Source of the DNA: Acidobacteriaceae bacterium
GTDB lineage: Bacteria > Acidobacteriota > Terriglobia > Terriglobales > Acidobacteriaceae
Length of the DNA: 58,360 nucleotides
Assembly: GCA_003165795.1 (NCBI GenBank)
Contig: PMWW01000152.1
Coordinates: 6,772 to 65,131 of the forward strand
Direction of reading: 5' to 3'
This document shows, piece by piece, positions 8,456 to 14,686 of this stretch; position 1 is the stretch's first letter, and every line of letters begins with the position of its first letter. The position numbers and the translations under genes were made by a program. The notes below the pieces were generated by a model. It was not told where the DNA came from. It made no database searches and saw nothing but the letters and a program-made list of their open reading frames with translations.

Positions 8456-9346
8456 TTATGAGGCGCGTTTCTTCTTATTCTGGCCATTCGCCTTTCCGGC
8501 ACCCGGTCCGATTCCGCCGCGCTTGGGACTATCCAGCAGTGTCTTGTCGGCGCTGACCAGATTTCCAACGCCTTCGCGATTGCGCTGGCCGGCCATATTA
8601 GGCTGCTGCGGCTGCTTCTCGCCGCCGCCCGGCCGAGGTGTCGCCGGGACGTCGAGTTCGCGGTGATGCGAACTCTTTTGGCGTTTGGCCACATCCCCAG
8701 CGTCCTGAGTATCTGACTTTGACTGCTTCCCGCCGCGTTGCTGGCGCGACTGCTCGTCGTGATGCAGGTCGAGCGGATGGGTCCCCGGATCTTCGCCCTC
8801 GGTCTCACCGGTCCTGGGATCGACAATAAACAGCAGGTCCGACAGATCGCTGGCATGCTCTTCCTCTTCGCTCAGGATGTGCTCGATCATCACTCGCGTG
8901 GTGGGATCGTGGTCGGCGAAGTGGCGAATCATCTTCGAGTAAACCTCGATGACGATGCGTTCGGCAATCAGGTCCTCCTTGATCATGTCGGCCAGTGTCT
9001 TACCCTCGGCGTACTGCGAGGCTGACCGCTGCAGAAGCGAGGCTGGATTGAAGTCGGGTTTTCCACCCAACTGCTGGATGCGCTCGGCGATCTCGTCGGC
9101 GTGCTCGCGCTCGGCATCGGCGTGCTCTTTGAATTCGTCGCGCACGGCCGTTCCGTGAACTCCCGTCGCCATGAAGTAGTGATGCATATAGCGCAGCACG
9201 CATACGATCTCGGTGGCCAGCGCCTCATTCAGAATGGAAATAGTATGTTCGACGTCTCCTTGGTAGGAAGCCGTTACCGCTCCGTCTTCAATCTTCTGGG
9301 CAGCGCGTTTGCGTATTTCTTCCACATCGGTGACAAAACTTGGCAT
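8456..9346 (-). CDS. Ferritin-like di-iron protein with a charged tail
   Basis: Residues 20-175 form a four-helix ferritin-like domain of the bacterioferritin type. The di-iron ligands are all visible: E46, E79 with H82 (ExxH), E129, and E161 with H164 (ExxH). The expected role is iron oxidation/storage or protection from peroxide. The last 110 residues are a low-complexity, hydrophilic tail rich in Gln, Lys, Gly and Pro that ends in NKKKRAS, unusual for a ferritin and possibly DNA- or surface-binding. ATG 9346 was chosen because GGGAGG lies upstream of it; a longer frame reaches back to 9478 but has no typical start region. The gene is followed by nothing on its strand. Confidence 0.88.
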   Translation of the reverse strand: MPSFVTDVEEIRKRAAQKIEDGAVTASYQGDVEHTISILNEALATEIVCVLRYMHHYFMATGVHGTAVRDEFKEHADAEREHADEIAERIQQLGGKPDFNPASLLQRSASQYAEGKTLADMIKEDLIAERIVIEVYSKMIRHFADHDPTTRVMIEHILSEEEEHASDLSDLLFIVDPRTGETEGEDPGTHPLDLHHDEQSRQQRGGKQSKSDTQDAGDVAKRQKSSHHRELDVPATPRPGGGEKQPQQPNMAGQRNREGVGNLVSADKTLLDSPKRGGIGPGAGKANGQNKKKRAS

Positions 9347-9520
9347 CAGAATTTCGACCTCCCACGAAGCTACCGCCCTCGCTGCGAGCACAAGTTCGCG
9401 CCCACCGGAGCGATTGACGGTGCGTGCTGTTGGATTCCAGGTTGCCCCATATGGATGCATCAAAGCGGACCGCAGCAACAGGTAATCCCCAGCAATGGGC
9501 CGTAGGTTCCCGCGCTCGGG

Positions 9521-10180
9521 TTACAGACCCGTTTCGACGGCGACCAGCAGCTCGCCCGACGGTCCTGTCCGGACTCTGACCCCGGTTAGCGAGGGCACAA
9601 TTACATCCGCTTCGAGCAACTGCTCCGGTTGGTACGTCGTGGTCACGCCGATTGCAACCATGCCGGCGGCTTTGGCGGCGGCGATGCCGGAAGGCGCGTC
9701 CTCGAATACCAGGCATTTCTGTGGCTCGCGACCCAACATCTTGGCGCCGGCCAGATAAGGCTCAGGATCAGGCTTGCCGTGGGTCACGTCGTCGGCCGTA
9801 ATCATTCTGGGCGGGACGGGCAGCCCAGCAACTTGCAGCCGCCTGGTGGCCAGTCGGCGAGTACCCGAAGTGACGACGCTGTAGCGATCCGACGCCAAGG
9901 CCAGCAATAGCTCTTTGGCTCCGGGCAGCACGCGCAGGCCTGCCGTGTCGTTGATCTCTTGCTGCTCAATCTTGTCCGTCTCCTTCTGCGCGTCGAGTTG
10001 CGGTGACACCTGGCGGACCGTCTCGATGGCGCGCTGGCCATGCGCCGCCTGGACGACAGCGTCTGGGTCAAGGCCGTGCTCGCGGGCCCAGGCCGCCCAG
10101 ACGCGAGTTACGCAGGGAGTTGAGTCGACCAGGACTCCGTCCAGGTCAAAGAGGATAGCTTCACAAAGAAACGACAGCAT
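9521..10180 (-). CDS. HAD-family sugar-phosphatase-like hydrolase
   Basis: This 219-residue haloacid-dehalogenase-superfamily phosphatase has all four motifs. Motif I is LFDLDGVLVDS (nucleophile D12, acid D14), motif II is SVVTSGT, motif III is the Lys in HGKPDPEPYL, and motif IV is VFEDAPSGIAAAKAAG. The alpha-helical cap between residues 20 and 90 places it with the DOG1/YfbT-type sugar phosphatases and beta-phosphoglucomutase relatives. The HGKPDPEPYL motif and FEDAPSG are characteristic of that group. The likely substrate is a small sugar phosphate, but phosphoglycolate-like compounds cannot be excluded. It is divergent from the MgtE-N/CBS gene that follows. Confidence 0.88.
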   Translation of the reverse strand: MLSFLCEAILFDLDGVLVDSTPCVTRVWAAWAREHGLDPDAVVQAAHGQRAIETVRQVSPQLDAQKETDKIEQQEINDTAGLRVLPGAKELLLALASDRYSVVTSGTRRLATRRLQVAGLPVPPRMITADDVTHGKPDPEPYLAGAKMLGREPQKCLVFEDAPSGIAAAKAAGMVAIGVTTTYQPEQLLEADVIVPSLTGVRVRTGPSGELLVAVETGL

Positions 10181-10313
10181 GATTTAGTTTCGCAGACGTT
10201 GGGGCAGCGGGCAAAAGTTAGGCCTCCCAGAAAGGGCGGCAAGACTCTTCTTAATCCGATATTGCGGTCAATTTCGCTGAAAGATTCGGACTGCATCGAA
10301 TATATTGACTGCA

Positions 10314-11555
10314 ATGCCTTCGCTTGCACTTTCGGAATTGATTGGTGCGGCCGTGATCGACAACACCGGCACGCATGCCGGCAAGGTGCGCGAAGTCACG
10401 CTGGTTCCGCAAGAGAATTCCAGCCTGGTCACCGGCTTTGTGGTGAAGACCCGCCACGGCAATCGCCTGGTGCCGGTTACGTCCATCAGCTTGATTAACG
10501 GGGGATTGCGGATCGCCACCTCGGTGGCAGACTGGGGTCCCTTCGGCGGCGGTGAAGGCATGCTGCTGCTGGAGCGCGACTTGCTCGATCAGCAGATTAT
10601 CGACGTTCACGGGCGCAAGGTGGTGCGGGTCAACGATGTTGATATCCACGAAGAGCGGGGCAACGGCCATATCGTGCTCAAAGTGGGAGCGGTGGATGTG
10701 GGACCGCGTGGGGCCATCCGCCGCTTGCTGAAGGGAGTGGTGCCGGCCGCAGCGCTGCACCTGCTGTTGGAGAGAATTCCTCCGCGGATGATTCCCTGGG
10801 AGTTCGTCGATCTTATCGAGATCGATCCCGCTCGGCGCGTCAAACTGAAGATCTCGCTGGATCGTCTGGCCAAGCTTCACCCCGCCGATATTGCGGACAT
10901 TGTTGAGGACCTTGCTCCGGCTGAGCGCGAGGCCATATTTGAGACGCTCGATGAAGAGGTTGCGGCCGAGACCCTGGAGGAGATCGATCCCAAGCTGCAA
11001 GTGTCGATTTTGAGTTCTCTGGATTCCGACCGCGCTGCCGACATCGTCGAGGAAATGGACCCCGATGCTGCCGCCGACCTGCTGGGCGACATGCATCCCG
11101 ATGCATCCCAAGAGATTCTCACTGAAATGGAGCCTGCGGAACGTGCCGAAGTCGCAGGATTGATGACCTTCGAGGAGGACACGGCGGCCGGACGCATGAC
11201 CACCGACTATATGGCGCTCGGGCCAAGCGCCAAAGTAGAGGACGCCATCGAAATGTTGCGCAACTTTGAAGGCGGGGTCGAGAGCGTTAGCACGATCTTC
11301 GTCATTGGCGAGAGGGAAAAACTCCTGGGCTCGGTCCCGTTGGCGAAAATTGTGCTGGCGCCGCCCGGAACTCCCTTGATGATGCTCAGCACCGGCCATA
11401 TGACGACGGTCCATCCCGGGGCCGACGAGAAGAAAGTGGCGGAACTTTTCGACAAGTACAACCTGCTCACCTTGCCGGTGATCGACGACGAAGGGGTGTT
11501 GACCGGCGTGATTACCGCCGACGACGTTATCAACATGCTAAGGGCGAAACTGTAG
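10314..11555 (+). CDS. Soluble PRC-barrel / MgtE-N / CBS-pair protein, probable Mg2+ sensor
   Basis: The 413-residue protein has, in order, two PRC-barrel-like domains (about 5-75 and 85-165), a MgtE N-terminal superhelix (187-290, beginning LHPADIADIVEDLAPAERE) and a CBS pair (295-412, ending LPVIDDEGVLTGVITADDV). These are the cytoplasmic Mg2+-sensing parts of the MgtE channel, but there is no transmembrane domain, so the protein is soluble. An NRAMP-type transporter lies 850 bases downstream on the same strand, and such soluble MgtE-N/CBS proteins plausibly gate or sense for it. ATG 10314 was chosen over TTG 10305. A TATATT box ends seven bases before the ATG, with no Shine-Dalgarno site, so the mRNA may be leaderless. 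Confidence 0.88.
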   Translation: MPSLALSELIGAAVIDNTGTHAGKVREVTLVPQENSSLVTGFVVKTRHGNRLVPVTSISLINGGLRIATSVADWGPFGGGEGMLLLERDLLDQQIIDVHGRKVVRVNDVDIHEERGNGHIVLKVGAVDVGPRGAIRRLLKGVVPAAALHLLLERIPPRMIPWEFVDLIEIDPARRVKLKISLDRLAKLHPADIADIVEDLAPAEREAIFETLDEEVAAETLEEIDPKLQVSILSSLDSDRAADIVEEMDPDAAADLLGDMHPDASQEILTEMEPAERAEVAGLMTFEEDTAAGRMTTDYMALGPSAKVEDAIEMLRNFEGGVESVSTIFVIGEREKLLGSVPLAKIVLAPPGTPLMMLSTGHMTTVHPGADEKKVAELFDKYNLLTLPVIDDEGVLTGVITADDVINMLRAKL

Positions 11556-11581
11556 CCGGAGGATGGCAAGCGGGACGAAGG

Positions 11582-11587
11582 TATAAT
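11582..11587 (+). promoter_or_regulatory. -10 box six bases before the antitoxin start
   Basis: A perfect TATAAT ends six bases before ATG 11594, so transcription would start at or next to the A of the start codon. No Shine-Dalgarno sequence is present. This predicts a leaderless antitoxin-toxin mRNA. Confidence 0.5.
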
Positions 11588-11593
11588 TTGGCG

Positions 11594-11884
11594 ATGACTC
11601 ACACTGTGATTCACATCTCGGAAGCGGAAGCGGAGAGCGACTTCGCTTCGGTTCTGGCACGGGTGCGCGAAGGTGCGGAAGTGGTGATCGACAAAGAAGC
11701 TGGCGGACCGGCGATCGCTGTGGTGCGGCCGGCGAAGGATCGGCCAAGACGGTTGTTGTCGGAGTCGATCGCCTTGGCGGAAGCACGTGGTTCGACCGTT
11801 ACTCTCGATGAGGGATTTTCACGTGATCTCGAGAGTGCAATCAATAGCCATCGAGAGCCGCTCAACCCACCTTCATGGGAATAG
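11594..11884 (+). CDS. vapB: Antitoxin of the second VapBC pair
   Basis: This 96-residue antitoxin is of the Phd/VapB type. An N-terminal segment (HISEAEAESDFASVLARVREG, given in part) and the central AEVVIDKEAGGPAIAVVRP match the small antitoxins that begin with a strand-helix DNA-binding unit. The C-terminal half (LDEGFSRDLESAINSH) is the toxin-binding part. It overlaps the PIN toxin by ten bases. TATAAT six bases before the start suggests a leaderless transcript. The pair lies between the MgtE-N/CBS protein and the NRAMP-like transporter and may have entered there secondarily. It differs clearly in sequence from the first pair at 5350, so the two are not recent copies of each other. Confidence 0.85.
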   Translation: MTHTVIHISEAEAESDFASVLARVREGAEVVIDKEAGGPAIAVVRPAKDRPRRLLSESIALAEARGSTVTLDEGFSRDLESAINSHREPLNPPSWE

Positions 11885-12288
11885 TCCTGGATTCAAGTGT
11901 TGCTATTGCCTCGGAGCGCCGAGGTGATAACGTCGCCAAGCTCCTCAAGCTGATTTTCGCTGCAACCGGCGATCAGGAAGCCGTGTTGTCCGCCATCGGT
12001 CTGACAGAACTCGTGCATGGCATCTATCGTGCGCAGACGCCCGAGATCCGCGCTCGCCGCGAATTGTTCATCCACGAGCTTCTCGTCAATGTCGAAGTGT
12101 ATGCCTTTACACAAGAAACGGCGCTGTTAGCAGGTAAGATTGACGGCGAACAACAAGCACGTGGGATAACTGTCCCCTTTAGTGATTTGTTAATAGGAGC
12201 GACCGCTCTCCTGCACGGGTACTCGGTACTGACCGTCAATGTCCGCGATTTCCGAAAGATTCCTGGTCTTAGCGTTCTTTCGCTCTAG
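11875..12288 (+). CDS. vapC: VapC-type PIN-domain toxin (second pair)
   Basis: This 137-residue PIN-domain ribonuclease starts MGIVLDSSVAI. The four acidic residues expected for metal binding are D6, E45 (GLTELVHG), D104 (PFSDLLIGATAL) and D125 (VNVRDFRKIPGL). The last segment, NVRDF followed by IPGL, is a hallmark of VapC toxins acting on structured RNA such as tRNA. ATG 11875 overlaps the antitoxin frame, which is the usual coupling. The active site is intact. The target RNA is unknown. Confidence 0.9.
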   Translation: MGIVLDSSVAIASERRGDNVAKLLKLIFAATGDQEAVLSAIGLTELVHGIYRAQTPEIRARRELFIHELLVNVEVYAFTQETALLAGKIDGEQQARGITVPFSDLLIGATALLHGYSVLTVNVRDFRKIPGLSVLSL

Positions 12289-12402
12289 CGCTCTTGGCTG
12301 AAGGACTTAAGCTTCGGGAAAGCATCGCATTCCGATTGGCGCATTTTCCAACATGCGTTTATTCTGGGTGTTCTTCGCATCTCACCGTAAGCCCTCAGTA
12401 CC

Positions 12403-13665
12403 ATGCCCGATTCACGACGCACTAGAGTTTGGCGAATTCGTCTGCTGATGTTCCTGGCCGTCATCGGCCCAGGATTCATCACGGCGAATGTGGACAATGA
12501 CGCGGGCGGCATCTATACGTACTCCGCCGCCGGAGCGCAGTTCGGGTACCTGCTGCTCTGGGTCATGATCCCGATGACCGTCGCGCTGGTCGTGGTGCAG
12601 GAAATGTCGGCGCGCATGGGCGCGGTCACCGGCAAAGGGCTTAGTGACCTCATTCGCGAGGAATACGGCCTGCGGATCACGTTTTTCATGATGCTGGGGC
12701 TGGTGATCACCAACTTCGGCAACGTGGTTTCAGAGTTCGCTGGGGTGGCCAGCAGCCTGGAGCTGTTCCACATTTCGCGCTACATCAGCGTGCCGGCAGC
12801 CGCCCTGATCGTGTGGTTATTGGTGGTGAAGGGCACGTACAAAAGCGTGGAAAAGGTCTTCCTGGTGGCGTCGTTCTTTTACTTTGCCTACATTATTGCC
12901 GGCGTGCTGGCCGGGCCCAGTTGGAGAGAGGCGTTCGTCGCAACGTTCAAGCCGCCGCACAGCGCTGCGTTCCGCGATTCGTCTTACATCTACATGGTGA
13001 TTGCGGTGGTGGGAACCACGATTGCGCCCTGGATGCAGTTCTACCTGCAATCTTCCATCGTGGAAAAAGGGATTACGTCGCGCGAGTACGGGGCTTCGCG
13101 GTGGGATGTGATCCTGGGTTGCTTGTTTACCGACGTCGTGGCGTGGTTCATCGTGGTGGCTTGCGCGGCGACACTCTATGCTCACGGCATCCGCCAGATC
13201 CGCGATGGCGCCGATGCGGCTCAGGCACTGCGTCCTCTGGCGGGGGAATATGCCTACATCCTTTTCGCTGCGGGACTGTTTAATGCTTCCTTGTTCGCTG
13301 CCTCCATCCTGCCGATCTCGACGGCGTACACGGTATGTGAAGGTCTGGGCTTCGAGTCGGGCGTGGGGCGCAAGTTCGGCGAGGCCAAGGTTTTCTACTG
13401 GCTCTACACCCTGCTGCTCATCGCCGGCGGCGGCGTCATCTTGCTACCCAACATTCCGCTGGTGAAAATCATCGTTCTTTCCCAGGTGGTGAACGGAATT
13501 GTTCTGCCCTTTGTGTTGATCTTCATGTTGCTGCTGATCAACAAGAGCGAACTGATGGGCAAATATGTGAACGGGACATGGTTCAACTTTATCGCGTGGG
13601 CAACCACCATCATCATGATTGGATTAACCATTGCCTGGTTTGCGACCGGTCGTGGCGGGAGCTAG
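12403..13665 (+). CDS. NRAMP-related divalent-metal transporter, probably Mg2+-type
   Basis: This 420-residue SLC11/NRAMP-fold membrane protein has about eleven helices. In ordinary NRAMP Mn/Fe transporters helix 1 carries DPGN and helix 6 carries a Met before Pro-His. Here helix 1 reads DNDAGG (residues 31-36, so Asn becomes Gly36) and helix 6 reads GTTIAPWMQ (204-212), so the Met is Ala208 and the His is Trp210. Loss of the Asn and Met ligands is the pattern described for NRAMP-related magnesium transporters, so Mg2+ is the best guess. The substrate is inferred, not shown. The start region MPDSRRTRVWRIRLL is basic, as expected for a cytoplasmic N-terminus. The neighbouring soluble MgtE-N/CBS protein supports a magnesium role. 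Confidence 0.88.
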   Translation: MPDSRRTRVWRIRLLMFLAVIGPGFITANVDNDAGGIYTYSAAGAQFGYLLLWVMIPMTVALVVVQEMSARMGAVTGKGLSDLIREEYGLRITFFMMLGLVITNFGNVVSEFAGVASSLELFHISRYISVPAAALIVWLLVVKGTYKSVEKVFLVASFFYFAYIIAGVLAGPSWREAFVATFKPPHSAAFRDSSYIYMVIAVVGTTIAPWMQFYLQSSIVEKGITSREYGASRWDVILGCLFTDVVAWFIVVACAATLYAHGIRQIRDGADAAQALRPLAGEYAYILFAAGLFNASLFAASILPISTAYTVCEGLGFESGVGRKFGEAKVFYWLYTLLLIAGGGVILLPNIPLVKIIVLSQVVNGIVLPFVLIFMLLLINKSELMGKYVNGTWFNFIAWATTIIMIGLTIAWFATGRGGS

Positions 13666-13783
13666 AGCAGTTTGGCATTCCTCGCGGGCTGAAGCCCGCG
13701 AGAATAACAACTAAAGGGCTTTTGCGGCACAGCTAAAGCTGTGCCCTTTCAAACCGTCGAGAATTCGAAGCTAGAGCAGTTTG
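13661..13783. repeat. Double-hairpin REP-like element flanked by 14-bp direct repeats
   Basis: The 14-mer GCTAGAGCAGTTTG occurs at 13661-13674 and again at 13770-13783. Between them are two hairpins: CTCGCGGGCT/AGCCCGCGAG (13681-13702) and GGCACAGCT/AGCTGTGCC (about 13723-13744). The first 14-mer holds the TAG stop of the transporter, and the second holds the TAG stop of the convergent NUDIX gene. It can serve as a bidirectional terminator. The arrangement looks like an insertion with target duplication. Confidence 0.7.
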
Positions 13784-14166
13784 CCGTCGGCAATCCGCTG
13801 CACCAGCGTGCGATCGGCATCAAGGAAATCAAGGGTGGGCAGTTCGCGCCGGGGCACCCAACGAATCTCGCGGAAGATACGGTTCTGCAGTTCTCCCTCA
13901 TACTGTTCCACGATGAAGAAGTGCAGCTCCACGGCATTGCCATTTTGATAGCGGTGTTGCAGTTGAGCGACTTTGGAACCAATCTGGGCGCGGATTCCAA
14001 GCTCCTCGTCGAGTTCGCGTTGCAGGGCCTGAGGCGGATCTTCTCCCGGCTCAATCTTTCCGCCGGGAAATTCCCACTTCAGCGGTAGCGCCTGATACTC
14101 CGTCCGCTGGCAGCACAGGATTTCTTCGCCTCGCACCATTAGAGCGGCAACCACTTGCTTGATCAT
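13771..14166 (-). CDS. NUDIX hydrolase, MutT-like
   Basis: This 131-residue NUDIX pyrophosphohydrolase has a perfect Nudix box, GGKIEPGEDPPQALQRELDE followed by ELGI (GX5EX7REUXEEXGU), at about residues 35-58. The N-terminal VVAALMVRGEEILCCQR and the core WEFPGGK match the MutT/8-oxo-dGTP diphosphatase branch, which removes oxidised nucleotides before they enter DNA. MutY, which acts on the same lesion in DNA, lies 3 kb away. The gene is directly followed on its strand by a REP-like element. Other NUDIX substrates remain possible. Confidence 0.9.
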   Translation of the reverse strand: MIKQVVAALMVRGEEILCCQRTEYQALPLKWEFPGGKIEPGEDPPQALQRELDEELGIRAQIGSKVAQLQHRYQNGNAVELHFFIVEQYEGELQNRIFREIRWVPRRELPTLDFLDADRTLVQRIADGKLL

Positions 14167-14203
14167 CGGAGCTGCTCCGTCCGACCATCGTCAAGCCCGG
14201 GCG

Positions 14204-14686
14204 TCATGTTGTTTTCTCCAGATAAATGCCGACCAGCCGAGCGCAATGTTCCACTAGCTGACGGTCGTCCGCGGTGAACGCCCCAGGGGTGTGACTGTCA
14301 ACGTCGAGTTCGCCGACAACCTCGCCCTTCACAAATATTGGGACTACGATTTCTGACTTGGTTGCGATCGAACATGCTAGATAACGCGGGTCGGCGTTAA
14401 CGTCATCGACGATAACGGTATGGCCTGACGAGGCGGCAGCGCCACAGATGCCTTGATTCAGCGGTATCCGCGTGTGTGGCGTGATCGCGCCCACATAGGG
14501 TCCAAGAACCAGGACGGGATCTTCGCCGATACCACCTTTTTCGATCATGTAAAAGCCGACCCAATCGAAGTAGAGCATCCGCTCCTTAAGCCGCCCTACC
14601 ATAACGCTCATCAGATCTTCCACACTTGCGGCGGCATTGGCTAGAACCGTGAGTTCCTGGGCAAGCTCTTGTTGACTGGTGGGCAT
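14204..14686 (-). CDS. GAF-domain protein, free methionine-(R)-sulfoxide reductase-like
   Basis: The 160 residues form a single GAF domain. The family marks of free Met-R-sulfoxide reductase are DWVGFYMIEKGG (41-52), LVLGPYVGA, IPLNQGICGAAA with Cys81, YLACS with Cys105, SEIVVPIF and GELDVDSHTPGAF. Two redox cysteines are therefore in the expected places. The usual third one cannot be identified, so activity may be reduced or the protein may only bind a ligand. It is 37 bases upstream of the NUDIX gene on the same strand, so both probably belong to one oxidative-damage operon. No output domain is attached, which speaks against a plain sensor. Confidence 0.82.
   Translation of the reverse strand: MPTSQQELAQELTVLANAAASVEDLMSVMVGRLKERMLYFDWVGFYMIEKGGIGEDPVLVLGPYVGAITPHTRIPLNQGICGAAASSGHTVIVDDVNADPRYLACSIATKSEIVVPIFVKGEVVGELDVDSHTPGAFTADDRQLVEHCARLVGIYLEKTT

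Follow-up and report, generated by a model that had tools for sequence, protein, structure and literature searches.

An NRAMP-related magnesium-type transporter and its co-occurring MgtE-like partner with predicted PRC barrels in Acidobacteriota

Introduction

The closest described relatives of the system treated here are the gene pairs reported by Shin et al. (2014, PMC4072509), who found that most of the nrmT genes they examined, coding for NRAMP-related Mg2+ transporters (NrmT, here NRMT), adjoin a gene homologous to the cytoplasmic domain of MgtE. The A. capsulatum (Acidobacterium capsulatum) and clostridial NrmT transport in B. subtilis without this partner, for which that paper speculates on feedback from the cytoplasm or, in A. 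capsulatum, on the sensing of Mn2+, leaving its role open (PMC4072509). Neither the pairing nor the idea of a feedback regulator is therefore new. Here we analyse such a pair in a 58,360-nucleotide stretch of DNA (the window) from an Acidobacteriaceae bacterium (assembly GCA_003165795.1, contig PMWW01000152.1), whose genome comprises 4.95 Mb in 208 contigs and is 99% complete. A gene for a soluble sensor-like protein (10314-11552, forward strand) precedes one for an NRMT (12403-13662, forward strand), and we propose, with a probability of roughly 0.6, that the two form a Mg2+ import system whose regulatory subunit is a separate protein.

In EleNRMT of Eggerthella lenta, the changes of Asn to Gly, Met to Ala and His to Trp, together with an added Thr, are described as widening the metal site for hydrated Mg2+, and transport is uncoupled from protons (PMC8806188). 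Our search of open-licence papers on acidobacterial NRAMP/MgtE magnesium transporters returned only PMC4072509, and one on the combination of PRC barrel, MgtE and CBS domains returned none. The words PRC and barrel are absent from the main text of PMC4072509, and that of PMC8806188 contains neither operon nor any word beginning with Acidobacteri, MgtE being mentioned there in other matters. To these studies we add the exact co-occurrence of NRMT with the sensor front end, the replacement of MgtE, the predicted PRC front end with a residue map of the sensor, and the loss of one Mg2+ site, Mg4, in one branch.

Results

The gene at 12403-13662 codes for 420 amino acids and matches the Pfam Nramp family with 325.8 bits. 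By sequence, its product is much closer to the Mg2+ transporter EleNRMT, its best solved relative (7qia; E 4e-111, 375 bits), than to NRAMPs of the MntH type (best chain E 7e-27, 98 bits). When mapped on the positions of MntH chains (Deinococcus) that we take to form the metal site, Gly36 takes the place of the Asn and Ala208 that of the Met, as Gly and Ala likewise do in 7qia; the two replacements, already pointed out in a first-pass annotation of this DNA, are thus right by both alignments. The site Asp (D33) is retained, and both proton-site histidines of alpha-6b are replaced, with W210 at the first and Q216 aligned with the second; the site segments read V30-D-N-D33-A-G-G36 and T205-T-I-A208-P-W210. 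Given these residues, identical to those of EleNRMT, the window NRMT would accommodate Mg2+ with most of its hydration water in an enlarged NRAMP site and, as shown for EleNRMT, would import it without proton coupling. At 32 of the 59 loci whose sensor has Asp91 and Asp247 (numbering of Thermus thermophilus MgtE, see below), NRMT carries exactly VDNDAGGI and IAPWMQ; the remaining variants listed differ mainly at positions 34-35, 37 and 207, with Thr at 208 in two. An extra acid, Asp31, lies two residues before the site Asp (V-D-N-D; residues 29-33, 12487-12501); it is invariant in 14 aligned sequences and Gly in EleNRMT.

The protein encoded upstream has 413 amino acids and is composed, from its N-terminus, of a PRC domain, a PRC-like domain, an MgtE_N superhelix and a CBS pair, as seen from Pfam and NCBIfam matches, PDB matches and an AlphaFold2 (AF2) model. 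Pfam recognizes PRC at residues 4-67, MgtE_N at residues 188-289 (E 5e-27) and CBS (E 5e-14). The NCBIfam MgtE model scores below its cut-off and covers the sensor at model positions 26-252 of 450 only, the channel part therefore being absent; the MgtE transmembrane domain (PF01769) was found neither in the sensor nor in its own genome. Without any membrane part, the protein ends where the plug helix of MgtE would start. MgtE cytosolic structures are its best PDB matches both by sequence and by fold, and the ten top fold matches of the whole sensor come from MgtE or from the soluble portions of Mg2+ transporters. Its AF2 model has confident domains in an uncertain arrangement (predicted local distance difference test score, pLDDT, 86.7; predicted template modelling score, pTM, 0.57). 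The protein fits the partner associated with NrmT, possessing the cytoplasmic part of MgtE only and being encoded near nrmT, with a Phd/PIN gene pair in between. Domain matches confirm both genes where the first-pass annotation had placed them. It had described the upstream protein as MgtE_N and CBS Mg2+-sensing domains devoid of a channel; the domains and the loss of the channel stand, the term Mg2+-sensing does so only partly, several Mg2+ ligands of MgtE being gone, and the PRC-barrel front end had been overlooked.

This front end, residues 1-182 (10314-10859, forward strand), is predicted to be a tandem PRC barrel. Its AF2 model contains two barrels (pLDDT 89.1, pTM 0.84), the second of them undetected by Pfam, and its top Foldseek match is 8qzo, CdpB1/CdpB2 (E 6e-6 to 1e-5 over 136-143 columns). 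PDB matches at E ≤ 0.001 comprise four chains only, all from this tandem PRC pair; the reaction-centre H subunit, whose barrel we take to be a PRC domain, also matches, near E 0.01. A Pfam PRC match is present in 29 of 32 aligned front-end members, and 11 of 13 invariant columns lie within residues 86-182; invariant residues of the second barrel are D89, D92, Q94, D97, V104, R105 and D108. Over 24 sensors, 49 columns are invariant, 2 in residues 1-85, 18 in 86-182, 20 in 183-290 and 9 in 291-413. The notion that the second barrel is better conserved than the MgtE_N part was dropped, conservation being about equal.

In a phylum sample of 149 Acidobacteriota genomes at least 90% complete, NRMT (called at E ≤ 1e-80, weakest 6e-114) occurs in 36 and the PRC front end (called at E ≤ 1e-15, weakest 1e-20) in the identical 36, the other 113 carrying neither. 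The gene starts lie within 8 kb and in the same order in 26 of these 36 genomes; of the other ten, nine have them split between contigs or strands, in some cases perhaps as an effect of contig breaks, and one has them 200 kb apart. Within genus g79 (family f29), one genome (G182) has neither gene and three MgtE matches, and five congeners (G093, G150, G158, G190, G198) carry the two genes, never on the same strand of one contig. In G190 and G198 a weaker MgtE match is present as well. Because shared ancestry inflates any p-value, we rely on this pattern and not on p-values. MgtE is found in 5 of the 36 NRMT genomes against 82 of the 113 others (Fisher 5e-10, uncorrected for ancestry), so that, in this sample, a genome with one of the two mostly lacks the other. 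Twenty of the 149 genomes have neither CorA nor MgtE, of which 15 carry NRMT and five none of the three, and 108 of the 113 genomes without NRMT have CorA or MgtE.

A set of 61 genomes, the window's own included, gave matches to both genes in 53, some NRMT matches being fragments or containing a stop (e.g. G024, G042, G033, G047). Chance or misannotation can be rejected on this co-presence and on the domain and PDB matches of both genes. The sensor lies upstream of NRMT, on the same strand and less than 2.5 kb away, in 29 of the 53, and in two more with this arrangement the distance is about 3.7 kb; two have the genes on opposite strands of the same contig and 20 on different contigs. Three of these 20 belong to the genus of the window, in which both genes of G001 lie at the ends of contigs. 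At 80 named GTDB loci, NRMT is downstream on the same strand in 46 (41 at ≤2 kb, five at 2.9-4.2 kb; L110 is counted although its NRMT is a 56-residue end only), 26 have no adjacent NRMT in at least 2 kb of DNA and eight have too little DNA, that is, 46 of 72 assessable loci. The neighbourhood search upholds the linkage, sensor first, in most groups, family f2 being apart: both genes are present in 11 of its genomes, always on different contigs (0/11 linked). At two unlinked f2 loci, L059 and L060, the sensor has two neighbours, and no common gene was seen between these two loci. No fused sensor-transporter was seen: among 56 sensor genomes the largest sensor frame, of 781 amino acids, is too short for both, and in G202 of the phylum sample, with a frame of 877 amino acids, NRMT has its own frame of 422 amino acids. 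The partner might instead regulate another transporter or gene expression and accompany NRMT only through a shared role in Mg2+ homeostasis, an idea to which family f2 lends some weight. We find it very improbable, because the front end was found in none of the 113 NRMT-free genomes, 108 of them having CorA or MgtE.

The content of other transporters in the window's own genome is consistent with a role of the pair in Mg2+ uptake. A genome search detected neither CorA nor an MgtE channel, and the gene for an MgtA-type Mg2+ ATPase is in two frames (G000, locus L154, contig C203:3993-6543), either by decay or by assembly error; three genomes of the same genus (G002, G005, G008) have near full-length MgtA-type matches. 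Of the classical Mg2+ import routes, the pair may be the only one that is intact in this bacterium. Its genome has two further NRAMP-family proteins. One has a canonical site (MDPGNW, MP), a motif suggesting that it serves Mn/Fe, and the other a DPSG-type site; this third family member (L003/L157, G000:C122) reads DDDPSG and ISPY, neither canonical nor NRMT. In the 61-genome set, 36 of the 54 NRMT genomes are without CorA, MgtE and over-cut-off MgtA. Short over-cut-off CorA matches (G054, G023) and sub-cut-off matches to CorA (G058) and MgtE (G049) were left out of this count; G054, G023 and G058 are out of the 36 anyway through another transporter, counting the MgtE of G049 would give 35, and P-type ATPases that scored below the cut-off in other genomes did not count as MgtA. 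All three near-complete members of the class without NRMT (G052, G057, G060) have MgtE.

To map the Mg2+ ligands, the numbering of T. thermophilus MgtE was recovered via an offset of 23, at which E59, D91, D95, D226, D247 and D250, as well as Y170, R187, D188, N203, V207 and F227, fit the T. thermophilus letters. Removal of 12 duplicates from the 130 sensors found left 118, all related sequences, which we aligned with seven acidobacterial MgtE as controls. The MgtE ligands are D91 and D247 for Mg4, D226 and D250 for Mg5, D95 for Mg6, E59 for Mg7, and 258 and 259 for Mg2 and Mg3 (PMC5882242); the second group of residues above is named for MgtE in PMC5529423. The window sensor keeps the residues of Mg4 (D251, D404), Mg6 (D255) and Mg7 (E219) and has lost Mg5 (N383, N407). 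Position 95 is Asp in 116 of the 118 sensors, position 59 is acidic in 99, and positions 91 and 247 are Asp in 85 each. We take 214, 216, 253 and 255 to be functional acids in MgtE; of the 118 sensors, 23 have an acid at 214 and 15 at 216. In the controls, 250, 247 and 91 are Asp in 7/7; at 226 and 95 they are weaker controls, since Asp stands there in only 4/7 and 3/7 (acidic in 5/7 at 95). Arg187 is Arg in 5/7 controls and in none of the 118 sensors (one gap). Loss of the ATP site by change of Phe227 to Leu was rejected as a peculiarity of the sensors, Leu being present in 7/7 controls.

Among the 116 sensors with residues at both 91 and 247, Asp stands at both in 83, at neither in 31 and at one only in two. 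Covariation as a statistical proof of a shared site was rejected, since on a tree it amounts to 2-4 changes. The Mg4 pair is lost in sensors named Acidobacterium sp. S8, Edaphobacter, Granulicella and Occallatibacter, through few evolutionary changes. Seven loci of the Acidobacterium/Edaphobacter/Granulicella branch (L115, L116, L118, L119, L123, L134, L142) have, instead of the GVITADD motif, for example GVVQADH or GVIHAEQ, with loss of Asp91 and Asp247, a replacement hinting at a changed ligand. Loss of the pair as a mark of all NCBI-named Acidobacteriaceae was dropped, since records so named that keep it exist (e.g. L067).

Sensor and NRMT are separated in the window by an 850-base gap, which the first-pass annotation missed in placing one gene just upstream of the other, correct as it was on their order. 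The gap holds two open reading frames on the forward strand, a weak Phd-like antitoxin (11588-11881; below the cut-off both in Pfam, at E 0.028, and with TIGR01552, at E 0.0086) and a PIN-domain VapC-like toxin (11875-12285; Pfam PIN 47.9 bits, VapC models E 1.7e-14, under cut-off). Compared with 153 loci, both proteins match loci of their own genome only, and five intergenic stretches of the same genus share with the window mainly the 32-51 bases adjoining the NRMT start, so the pair looks like an insertion. Near the module, the reverse strand encodes a ferritin-like protein (8456-9478) whose C-terminal tail is long and charged.

Discussion

Several observations weigh against a Mg2+ importer under Mg2+ control. 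The strongest comes from 2014: with the A. capsulatum NrmT, rescue was complete in a mutant deficient in Mn2+ uptake, whereas a Mg2+-transport mutant required low millimolar Mg2+ to be rescued, and co-expression of the MgtE-like gene gave no further Mg2+ rescue (PMC4072509). In our sensors, the Mg5 site is lost (position 226 is Asn in 117/118, with a gap in one, and 250 is acidic in 1/118), the plug-side position 253 is Arg in 108/118, and the window sensor, stopping near position 256, does not reach the ligands of Mg2 and Mg3. NRMT does not exclude CorA (19/36 against 75/113, p 0.17), leaving its role as a CorA substitute unsupported, and the genes of family f2 are never linked. Lastly, Rfam yielded no match up to E 1 in 9000-14500, M-box and other Mg2+ riboswitches included, and control by a riboswitch was rejected.

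Together with the transport of Mn2+ by EleNRMT (PMC8806188), the rescue data and the missing M-box support a reading in which NRMT is physiologically a Mn2+ importer whose partner responds to Mn2+, the view put forward in 2014 for A. capsulatum. We judge this unlikely for the window. Its genome has a separate NRAMP with a canonical site but no CorA or MgtE channel, and NRMT trades places with MgtE across the phylum sample. Moreover, the sensor of A. capsulatum, a member of the genus Acidobacterium, is probably without the Asp91/Asp247 pair, as are those of its relatives Acidobacterium sp. S8, Edaphobacter and Granulicella; the 2014 test may therefore not speak for the window. The rescue readout used there could not, in addition, reveal inhibition by the partner.

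A second alternative makes the partner a subunit indispensable for assembly or activation, or a scaffold built on PRC domains, and not a Mg2+-responsive inhibitor. Co-occurrence in 36 of 36 genomes even where the genes are unlinked would suit an essential partner, the second PRC barrel is conserved like MgtE_N and above the CBS part, the nearest fold of the front end is a heterodimeric archaeal PRC pair, and several Mg2+ ligands of MgtE are lost. Yet the A. capsulatum and clostridial NrmT work in B. subtilis alone, and Asp95 and other N-domain acids are retained, which makes this alternative doubtful in our opinion. As to the lost ligands, MgtE channels with D91A/D247A, D95A or D226N/D250A fail to close (PMC5882242), so that the sensor naturally resembles a Mg5 mutant, as would fit a protein without plug helix.

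We therefore favour a Mg2+ importer with a detached regulator, in which the soluble protein would be a dedicated regulatory subunit of NRMT. Docking would be the task of its tandem PRC barrels, with the cytoplasmic face of NRMT as the likeliest target, and its MgtE_N-CBS part would compact at high cytosolic Mg2+ by means of the retained acids of the N domain and CBS, Asp95 in nearly all and Asp91/Asp247 in most members. By analogy with MgtE, compaction may then lower Mg2+ import, although the sensor, having no plug helix, cannot gate as MgtE does. The first-pass annotation had suggested a two-gene magnesium uptake module with a detached regulator; the Mg-type transporter and the detached MgtE-like partner are real and co-occur in all 36 NRMT genomes of the phylum sample, but the 2014 pair favoured Mn2+ and its partner brought no help, so the suggestion is supported in part. 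More tentatively, this regulatory subunit may be obligate, its PRC barrels substituting for the covalent link and the plug helix of MgtE, and the MgtE sensor may be a transferable module placed on a carrier of unrelated fold with fewer Mg2+ sites. The Acidobacterium/Edaphobacter/Granulicella branch, which lost Mg4 too, may have changed its ligand, and such a change would explain the negative test of 2014.

Identical distribution, replacement of MgtE and the residue map all speak for a strict partnership of a gene whose role had stayed open, and the map and branch pattern point to the sites to mutate and the member to test. If PRC barrels indeed couple a borrowed sensor to an NRAMP-fold carrier, regulation would have moved between unrelated transporters.

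Compared with known systems, the window NRMT shares with EleNRMT (7qia) its subfamily, Gly and Ala in place of the site Asn and Met, a Thr before the alpha-6 break and a Trp for the first alpha-6b His; it differs in the residues leading up to and including the site Asp, V-D-N-D against A-G-N-D in EleNRMT. The sensor resembles the cytosolic domain of T. thermophilus MgtE (2yvy, 2zy9) in its MgtE_N superhelix, CBS pair and acids at 59, 91, 95 and 247, and departs from it by the absence of channel and plug helix, the change of Asp226 to Asn, the loss of Asp250, Arg at 253 and the added PRC barrels. Its first 182 residues have the tandem PRC-barrel fold of CdpB1/CdpB2 from Archaeoglobus fulgidus (8qzo), at 12-14% identity and with matched chains (150-168 residues) too short for the MgtE and CBS parts. 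Closest are the NrmT and MgtE-like pairs of Shin et al. (2014), such as Acp2976/Acp2977 of A. capsulatum, with the same two genes, order and phylum and the same proposal of cytoplasmic feedback. Unlike them, the window has a Phd/PIN pair between its genes, and its sensor keeps Asp91 and Asp247, which are absent in the sequenced Acidobacterium, Edaphobacter and Granulicella relatives.

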